Assembly: GCA_903873705.1 (NCBI GenBank)
Contig: CAIQPK010000077.1
Location: 1 to 64,000 of the forward strand
Direction: 5' to 3'
DNA from: an uncultured Acidobacteriota bacterium
GTDB lineage: Bacteria; Acidobacteriota; Terriglobia; Terriglobales; Acidobacteriaceae
Length of the DNA stretch: 64,000 nt
Positions 56,552 to 57,608 of the stretch are shown here, one piece after another (positions within the stretch are counted from its first letter, which is position 1; every line of letters starts with the position of its first letter). A program made the translations under genes and the position numbers. Below the pieces are notes generated by a model, which ran no database searches, was not told the DNA's origin, and worked only from the letters and a program-made list of their open reading frames with translations.

Positions 56552-57322
56552 CTATCGCGAAACCCCATCCAGCGGCGAGCTGGCCGTAGCGTAAAGCTTG
56601 CGCCCCATCCGTCCCGCCTCAAACGCCTCACGCCCCGCCTCGGTGGCCTTCTTCATCGCCGACGCCATCAGCACCGGCTGCTTCGCCCCGGCAATTGCCG
56701 TATTCAGCAGCACCGCGTCGAAGCCCATTTCCATCGCCAGCGCTGCGTCGCTCGCCGTACCCAGACCGGCATCCACCACCAGCGGCACCTCGGTAATCAA
56801 CTCGCGCATCATCCGCAAGGTATAGCTATTCGCGATGCCCAGGCCTGTGCCGATCGGCGCTCCCAGCGGCATCACCGCTGCCGCACCCACGTCGATCAGC
56901 CGTTTCGCAAACACAATATCGTCAGTGGTGTACGGCAGCACCGTAAACCCTTCCTTCACCAGCACGCGGGTAGCCTCAACCGTTGCCTGAACATCCGGAT
57001 AAAGCGTCGCCTGGTCGCCGATCACCTCAATCTTCACCCAGTCCGAAAGCCCCACCTCGCGCCCCAGCCGCGCCGCCCGGATCGCCTCTTCCGCGGTGTA
57101 GCACCCCGCCGTATTCGGCAGCAGAAAGTACTTCTTCGGATCGATAAAATCCAGCAGCGATTCCTTGGCGCGGTCCAACTCCACGCGCCGTACCGCTACC
57201 GTCACCATCTCTGCGCCAGAGGCCTCAATGGCGTCCCGTGTCTCCGCGCCGTCCTTGTACTTCCCCGTTCCCACAATCAACCGCGAACTAAAAGTCCGCC
57301 CTGCAATCACCAACTCACTCAT
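56552..57322 (-). CDS. thiG: Thiazole synthase ThiG
   Basis: The 256-aa TIM-barrel enzyme condenses 1-deoxyxylulose-5-phosphate, dehydroglycine or iminoacetate, and sulfur from ThiS-thiocarboxylate to form the thiamine thiazole. Motifs are [73 protein letters not shown] (Schiff-base lysine region), [20 protein letters not shown] and [20 protein letters not shown]. It is the last gene on the minus strand here. A long structured leader (57353-57490) with four hairpins and a possible short peptide lies upstream; no TPP riboswitch is evident. Confidence 0.97.
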
Positions 57323-57352
57323 ACCTCAATCCTAATGCCTTCACCCAAAACA

Positions 57353-57386
57353 CAAACGGCCCGCCCCGGTTGGGGCGAGCCGTTTT
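57353..57386. terminator. Strong bidirectional hairpin upstream of thiG
   Basis: AAACGGC (57354-57360) pairs with GCCGTTT (57379-57385) and CGCCCC with GGGGCG inside it, with one C/A mismatch and a GGTT loop, giving about 13 paired positions. TTTT follows on the plus strand; on the minus strand GTTTGTGTTTT follows. It would end transcripts from the small peptide gene before thiG. Confidence 0.8.
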
Positions 57387-57410
57387 GCGGTGATCTGGTG
57401 GGATTGACTT

Positions 57411-57435
57411 GAGGCATCCGTCTCGGATGGGCCTC
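57411..57435 (-). repeat. Hairpin in the thiG leader
   Basis: GAGGCATCCG (57411-57420), a TCT loop, then CGGATGGGCCTC (57424-57435) form a stem with a 2-nt bulge. It follows the first terminator-like element on the minus strand and may be part of a structured leader RNA. Confidence 0.5.
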
Positions 57436-57455
57436 GGAGGAGTACGTACTTCGGT

Positions 57456-57473
57456 AAAAAGACCTCCAGGTCT
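57456..57473 (-). terminator. Terminator after the small peptide frame
   Basis: On the minus strand AGACC-TGGA-GGTCT (57473-57460) is a 5-6 bp hairpin followed directly by TTTTT (57460-57456). A second hairpin, TAGAGCG-TCCG-CGCTCTA on the same strand at 57473-57490, abuts it and includes the peptide's stop codon. Confidence 0.75.
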
Positions 57474-57487
57474 AGAGCGCGGACGCT

Positions 57488-57544
57488 CTAAGCCTCAGTC
57501 ACCTCACGTTGAGTACTGCCACAACTGGAACAATCAATTTTCAT
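57488..57544 (-). CDS. Possible 18-22 aa cysteine-containing peptide gene
   Basis: An 18-codon frame reads MKIDCSSCGSTQREVTEA, with a CSSC motif and a TAG stop. A perfect Shine-Dalgarno, AAAGGAGG (57557-57564), lies 12 nt upstream. An in-frame ATG at 57556, touching the Shine-Dalgarno, would give 22 residues starting MIQS. A promoter (57580-57608) precedes it and a terminator follows within 20 nt, so it looks like a complete small transcription unit. There is no recognised homologue, maturation enzyme or target nearby. It could be a leader peptide for thiG attenuation, a small Cys peptide product, or a chance frame. Confidence 0.5.
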   Translation of the reverse strand: MKIDCSSCGSTQREVTEA

Positions 57545-57579
57545 AGACTGGATCATCCTCCTTTCCCGTGTTGATAGGT

Positions 57580-57608
57580 ACAGTACTGCATGGTTAACCC
57601 CATGTCAA
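57580..57608 (-). promoter_or_regulatory. Sigma-70 promoter for the small peptide transcript
   Basis: On the minus strand TTGACA (57608-57603), a perfect -35, is 17 nt from TACTGT (57585-57580), a fair -10. Transcription would start near 57573, giving a leader of about 10 nt to AAAGGAGG. Confidence 0.6.

Follow-up and report, generated by a model that had tools for sequence, protein, structure and literature searches.

What is the short run of expression signals that precedes a thiG-like gene in an uncultured member of the Acidobacteriaceae, and does it serve that gene or stand on its own? The locus occupies positions 57608-57354 on the minus strand of the window, by which we mean the whole stretch of 64,000 nt that was analysed, and is flanked by thiG and a divergent small ORF. 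The preliminary description had proposed a complete miniature transcription unit, and its signals are indeed present on the minus strand, where comparison with relatives shows them to make up one real gene. A -35 element, TTGACA (57603-57608), is followed after a spacer of 17 nt by a -10 element, TACTGT (57580-57585). Then come the predicted 5' end with an extended Shine-Dalgarno (SD) sequence, ACACGGGAAAGGAGGATGATCC (57550-57571, placed from alignments A1 and A5), which includes the SD core AAAGGAGG (57557-57564), and a mini-ORF of 18 codons, MKIDCSSCGSTQREVTEA, whose frame, start and stop are kept (57488-57544, from the ATG at 57544 to the TAG at 57488). Further downstream lie a GACC..GGTC hairpin with five T (57456-57472), which the alignment places within the variable middle part of the RNA, and a terminator-like hairpin, P4, with 14 pairs, covarying arms and a T-rich tail (57354-57385). 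We interpret this layout as a predicted free-standing RNA gene of about 220 nt upstream of the thiG-like gene, with a 5' end predicted near 57571.

Taken one by one, these signals are statistically weak or ordinary. The core AAAGGAGG is expected by chance 1.54 times per window, which makes it weak as a lone signal, and a strict promoter scan found no promoter at the unit. Across 56 loci, the -35 region has TTGA or TTGC in all 56 and TTGAC in 32, and in 52 a TANNNT hexamer falls in the 22 nt that immediately precede the RNA (both are raw counts). We accept the unit as real because of its conservation. That single signals are common by chance would suit a functionless chance arrangement, but this explanation is refuted by the conservation of the locus, the covariation of its arms and the maintenance of its frame, and we give it practically no weight.

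The gene occurs at one place in its own genome. Within the genus, 26 of the 28 genomes gave a strong match, its own included; the exceptions are one genome without a match (G011, 67% complete) and one with a match at chance level only (G014, 89% complete). Another genome (G017) carries two strong copies on different contigs (G017:C43:236-427 and G017:C88:16337-16521), the result of a duplication or of a mixed assembly. No strong match was found in 14 genomes of another family of the same order, which were included in the genus-level search alone. At the scale of the phylum, an 18-mer from the end of the ORF was found exactly in 39 of 396 genomes, with one copy each. The family, with 44 genomes sampled, accounts for 38 of the 39, and the reversed pattern, used as a control on the same genomes, gave no match. 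The covariance model R1 reached a rough E ≤ 1 in 73 of the 396 genomes, with strong matches also in other families, and was found once in each of 42 of the 44 sampled genomes of the family (G376 and G400 have no match). A sequence model of the 5' part of the RNA, R2, run on the 396 genomes, matched 146 at E ≤ 0.1 and 80 at E ≤ 1e-3. The latter cover the family and ten other Acidobacteriota families, and the remaining 316 genomes had no R2 match at this threshold. R2 matches that score about 15.8 bits and cover positions 5-30, of which several members of one family have two in each genome, resemble 16S antisense. When 16 further R2 matches were fetched, 12 were judged genuine by eye and four were not (L290, L291, L293 and L294). 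One Nitrospirota contig (L202) shows the same peptide end, SEVAAS and a stop, with a matching arm by eye. The preliminary description had made its reading depend on the conservation of frame and hairpins among close relatives, and both are conserved. From these comparisons we regard it as almost certain that the locus is a conserved autonomous gene; as judged from the assemblies, it is a separate gene, nearly always in single copy.

The reading frame was surveyed in 56 loci, 55 of the family and one of another family (L032). In all 56, the frame opened by the first ATG that lies 6 nt or more beyond the SD is also that of GAG GTG. The ORF has exactly 17 codons in 42 loci and 11 to 20 in the others (15-20 in family loci, 11 in L032), and it ends in TAG (47 loci), TAA (6) or TGA (2), one stop being lost at a contig end. 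Three codons lead from GAG GTG to the stop in 34 of 35 diverse members, though the intervening codons vary. The 35th (L103) has an earlier GAGGTG, and its real end also fits the three-codon rule; the newly found families show the same stop spacing. It had been suggested that the unit encodes a CxxC peptide of 18 to 22 residues. The short ORF is maintained, but the motif is not: among 37 distinct 17-codon ORFs, Cys stands at codon 5 in 10 and at codon 8 in 25, and these positions are otherwise mostly Ser. Since start, frame and stop are kept while Cys and Ser interchange, the frame appears to be selected and the CxxC does not. The 22-residue version is also disfavoured, as its upstream ATG directly adjoins the SD, and only 30 of the 56 loci keep that ATG in frame with no stop in between. 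The same counts do not support the proposed link to cysteine, and a role as cysteine sensor was rejected because the Cys codons are not kept in these 37 ORFs. The distance from SD to ATG is 12-14 nt in 54 of the 56 loci. Such a distance exceeds the usual optimum, so strong translation is not certain. On the conservation of the frame, we nevertheless consider it very probable that the mini-ORF is translated.

A conserved and probably translated frame may exist for its product, a tiny functional peptide acting as a signal or after modification, with the RNA folds serving stability only. The kept frame, start and stop agree with this, as does a C-terminal end, EV-x-x-x, that is similar in examined members across the phylum. 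Yet the N-terminal half of the peptide is loosely kept and variable in length, and codons 12-17 show no third-position change among the 37 distinct 17-codon ORFs, which points to a constraint on the RNA there. The fixed part of the peptide is the part that pairs in helix H1 (described below), so RNA pairing can explain it, and we find a functional peptide unlikely.

The leader ACACGGGAAAGGAGGATGATCC is a near-complete complement of the 3' tail of 16S rRNA, AGAAAGGAGGTGATCCAGCC, with one inserted base. AAGGAGG and GAGGTG are invariant in all 35 sequences of alignment A5. The 16S end GGCTGGATCACCTCCTTTCT was found in five of six family genomes examined. The assembly from which the window derives (G000) is without GGCTGGATCACCTCCTTT, and the 16S 3' end hence seems to be missing from it. 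Many distant members have the leader GAAAGGAGGTGGTCCAG, which is a complement when G-U pairs are allowed, whereas the version of the family has the one inserted base. Such a leader might make the RNA a trap for ribosomes: the 16S-tail complement and the SD-like GAGGUG near the stop would retain 30S subunits or ribosomes at termination, thereby buffering the free ribosomes. The invariance of the two motifs in A5 would fit, together with the retention of the 16S-tail complement in other families and the rarity in the own genome of sites like GAAAGGAGGTGATCC (none within one mismatch, two at two mismatches). However, one gene per genome would need very high abundance, the complement is interrupted by the inserted base within the family, and the covarying arms downstream would be left unexplained. 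We therefore think ribosome trapping distinctly improbable.

These downstream arms belong to two helices that join the end of the ORF to strands just before the terminator. In helix H1, the ORF contributes GGUGRCUG and the strand ahead of the terminator CAGNYCACC. In the window its 5' arm is GGTGACTG (57496-57503, codons V-T-E; placed by covariation and by eye) and its 3' arm is CAGATCACC (57389-57397, placed by covariation), inside the conserved stretch AATCCCACCAGATCACCG, which resembles the GATCACC of the 16S tail. In the long-range helix LR, the last codon, the stop and the following bases, GGCTTAGAGCGTCC (57481-57494), pair with a strand 5' of AAUCYCAA, GGATGCCTCAAGTC (57406-57419), both arms being placed by covariation. 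Two local hairpins compete with this form: P1, around the stop codon (57472-57491), predicted by minimum free energy and covariation, and P3, GAGGCCCATCC/GGATGCCTC (57411-57435), predicted by minimum free energy with weaker covariation. P1 competes with LR, and P3 and LR share one 3' arm, so P1/P3 exclude LR.

We tested the RNAalifold prediction obtained from A1, a MAFFT alignment of 37 sequences made without structure. It contained 51 cells with changes on both sides of a pair against 12.1 in shuffles (0 of 500), and 12 pairs with such changes against 6.8 (1 of 500). Shifting the 3' partner by one column reduced pairing from 95% to about 45%. Within H1, five of the eight pairs never vary in A1 and one changes on both sides. 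In A3, where 46 sequences were fitted to the structure model and thus lean towards it, 172 cells changed on both sides against 45.7 in shuffles (0 of 500), and all eight pairs of the part of LR farther from H1 did so. The arms pair at -23.4 kcal/mol within species and at -18.4 kcal/mol across species (0 of 5000 permutations, relatedness uncontrolled; based on 43 rows of A3, after three of its 46 had been dropped for arms missing or too short). All these controls flatter the fold, because the structure comes from the same alignment, A3 was itself fitted to that structure and the shuffles take no account of relatedness. By eye, the next pair of H1 varies as A-U, G-C and U-A in the last families to be found. 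The covariation of P1/P3 is weaker: 24 cells against 11.1 (0 of 500), with further standard pair types not unusual relative to shuffles (72 of 500). For the window RNA, the energy model comes out in favour of the local hairpins P1, P2 and P3, and the pair probability of H1 never exceeds 0.05. The closed form, with H1 and LR, hence rests on covariation and not on energy. The hairpins noted in the preliminary description belong to a structured RNA, which folds better than its shuffles (z = -4.07). We conclude from the covariation that the end of the ORF is paired with the strands just before the terminator and that this pairing co-evolves. We read H1/LR and P1/P3 as two conserved competing folds, and both are probably functional.

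Competing folds between a short ORF and a terminator raise the possibility of attenuation. The neighbour (56552-57322, minus strand), which we take to be thiG, bears this name provisionally, from the preliminary description. If the RNA were its attenuator or leader, translation of the mini-ORF would choose between termination and read-through into thiG. A leader ORF, competing hairpins and a terminator do stand in order, and thiG relatives are found downstream in 39 of 55 loci, directly (within about 450 nt) in 35 and farther in 4. Against this, no thiG was found in the fetched flank of the other 16 loci. The signals had been described as ending just before thiG, and the unit does end there, but thiG is preceded by a separate promoter-like box, the -10-like TAGGAT (57329-57334), which lies outside the RNA. 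A TANNNT box lies 6-9 nt before the thiG start in 35 of 37 loci, compared with 2.9% at random positions; this count, a prediction and not a mapped start, covers the loci with a clear start and excludes two without. None of four SD pentamers occurs upstream of thiG in these loci, and the box is present also where thiG is far from the RNA (L003, L006 and L007). The covarying arms of H1 and LR do not overlap the arms of P4, so the competing helices leave out the terminator and no antiterminator excluding it was seen. The 37 distinct 17-codon ORFs keep no regulatory codon run. Finally, representatives of other lineages have different predicted neighbours (by eye, in 38 chosen loci, L095 giving no result). 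These neighbour ORFs were predicted mechanically and many may be in the wrong frame; the names rnr, arfB and thiG are presumptive. Attenuation of thiG was rejected on the basis of the gene's own box and of the copies without thiG in the fetched flank, and the link to thiG made in the preliminary description is not borne out. We judge the attenuator highly improbable, and any switch role for thiG unlikely on these predictions. As a separate observation, thiG appears to be leaderless in the family (57334-57320 in the window), with a TANNNT box and no recognised Shine-Dalgarno sequence in 35 of 37 loci.

The reading we favour is that of an autonomous small structured mRNA, or dual-function sRNA, of about 220 nt whose fold would be opened by ribosomes reaching the stop codon; it seems to us plausible, if somewhat short of probable. 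The 5' leader, as a near-complement of the whole free 16S tail, would load ribosomes very efficiently. A ribosome reaching the stop codon would cover the 5' arms of H1 and LR, and the RNA would then shift to the local-hairpin form. This form would free the pre-terminator strand, AAUCYCAACAGNYCACCG, and the closed form would return when ribosome loading fails. The freed strand, which resembles the 16S tail, could pair in trans with ribosome-binding sites of mRNAs; alternatively, the change of fold may set the stability of the RNA. The peptide, its fixed C-terminal end apart, would be a by-product. Among the parts of this model, we consider it likely that the RNA acts in trans and not on thiG, and put forward the translation-gated exposure of the pre-terminator strand tentatively.

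We then compared the RNA with known ones. The preliminary description knew of no described counterpart, and none was found in Rfam 15 or in the full-text literature searched. At gathering score, Rfam 15 finds only a tRNA in the window and the mini-gene matches no family. The tRNA-like ends and the tag frame of a tmRNA were not found in it, and ARAGORN reports only a tRNA-Lys in the window. The RNA is not described in the searched portions of the literature, which include parts of PMC5089854, PMC5082802, PMC10117765, PMC3927594 and PMC11005374. According to the portion of PMC5089854 covered, UpsM is an sRNA from the mraZ leader in Rhodobacter, expression of mraZ requires transcription to read through from the promoter of UpsM, and the sORF of UpsM is stated to be confined to R. 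sphaeroides. The two RNAs share a length of about 200 nt, an intrinsic terminator, an sORF and a potential to refold, but here the next gene carries a promoter-like box of its own; on this partial description (PMC5089854), UpsM was rejected as the same RNA. As far as the excerpts of PMC10117765 and PMC7298713 go, rnTrpL/peTrpL of Sinorhizobium is likewise a dual-function RNA with a short ORF that acts beyond its own operon, properties that here are only proposed. However, rnTrpL is a leaderless trp attenuator before trpE, whereas the frame described here is led by an SD and has no such operon (PMC10117765, PMC7298713).

Another likeness is with CC2171 (RF01867), an sRNA of Caulobacter. Its consensus starts with GAAAGGAGGUGAUCCAG, which is present here with one inserted base. 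In loci of the MSHC type, a short GUG frame directly follows GAAAGGAGGUGAUCCAG, and early bases of this ORF find their pairing partner immediately upstream of the terminator, a layout similar to the one described here. In contrast, the GUG and UCUCAUUGUC that follow GAAAGGAGGUGAUCCAG in CC2171 are absent from our RNA, and CC2171 has a different peptide (MSHC...), a CAUUGUC/GACAAUG helix and no shared H1 sequence. The gene scores 21 bits against RF01867 (E of 0.012-0.042), compared with a gathering score of 75, and so falls outside the family. No other place in its genome matches RF01867 at E ≤ 10; since this lax threshold yields some match in 10 of 14 control genomes too, the 21-bit match alone proves nothing.

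A search with the pattern GAAAGGAGGTGRTCCAGTG returned at least 119 stretches with matches. Among the listed matches, 80 titles name mostly Alphaproteobacteria, and also Gemmatimonadota, Phycisphaerales, Nitrospirota, Acidobacteria and one Nitrosomonadales contig. Among these at least 119 listed stretches, 118 frames close within their stretch, 117 of them after 11-33 codons. The exceptions are L160, a misfit with 57 codons and a signal-peptide-like product, and L135, which runs off its stretch. The shortness of the frames is not evidence in itself, as random frames have similar lengths, but the conservation of peptides and lengths within lineages is, and among the listed matches both agree within lineages (at least 51 frames of 18 codons and at least 18 of 14). 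Consensus folds were predicted for groups chosen by peptide that cover 99 of the 119 listed loci. In these predictions, the SD of 50 sequences of Rhodobacterales type pairs with CAUCUCC/CACCUCC ahead of the terminator, CAUUGUC pairs with GACAAUG in 35 of MSHC type, and the SD of 14 of Bradyrhizobium type pairs with a UCACCUC inside the ORF. The cut-off of RF01867 was reached in five of 18 loci scanned, all of MSHC type, and three Rhodobacterales-type loci scanned had no Rfam match.

The Rhodobacterales-type RNA is found upstream of a GGQ-type ribosome-rescue gene that is presumably ArfB-like. An arfB-like gene lies near at least 39 of the 119 listed loci (including L132, L198 and L246), at 180-320 nt from the start of the RNA in 32 of these 39. 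As a general partner arfB was rejected, since the Acidobacteriota loci L001-L129 gave no match to it. The Rhodobacterales-type RNA resembles ours in its 16S-tail complement, its short frame (18 codons there) and its terminator, and its pre-terminator strand can pair with the SD. It differs from the Acidobacteriota RNA in sequence, in pairing partner and in its neighbour, an arfB-like gene and not thiG.

Two further sets of loci deserve mention. In the Bradyrhizobium type (L162, L175, L203 and others), the 14-codon frame holds a UCACCUC able to fold back onto the SD, and CUCGCUGG, next to it, has a pairing partner in CCAGCGAG downstream. These two pairings overlap, which would make a switch if the predicted structures form. 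Short frames with a full 16S-tail complement and a terminator-like hairpin were also observed in two Phycisphaerales loci (L143 and L208) and one of Gemmatimonadota (L151).

It is conceivable, if rather doubtful, that the Acidobacteriota RNA, CC2171 and the Rhodobacterales and Bradyrhizobium RNAs form one old translation-gated class. Its members would combine a 16S-tail complement that is nearly complete, a mini-ORF (11-33 codons) and, ahead of the terminator, a strand that in many cases copies the 16S tail. This strand would be hidden or free depending on the passage of ribosomes through the mini-ORF, and one small RNA would let the cell read its supply of free ribosomes.

What we describe looks like a new small-RNA family, and the shape of its members could depend on their own translation. 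With it, the Acidobacteriota gain a structured RNA that is conserved and readily open to testing. The comparison also joins the Rfam entry CC2171 and the RNAs beside arfB into one testable layout, an mRNA whose codons would be the switch. If translation gates its shape, the RNA would sense the supply of ribosomes directly.
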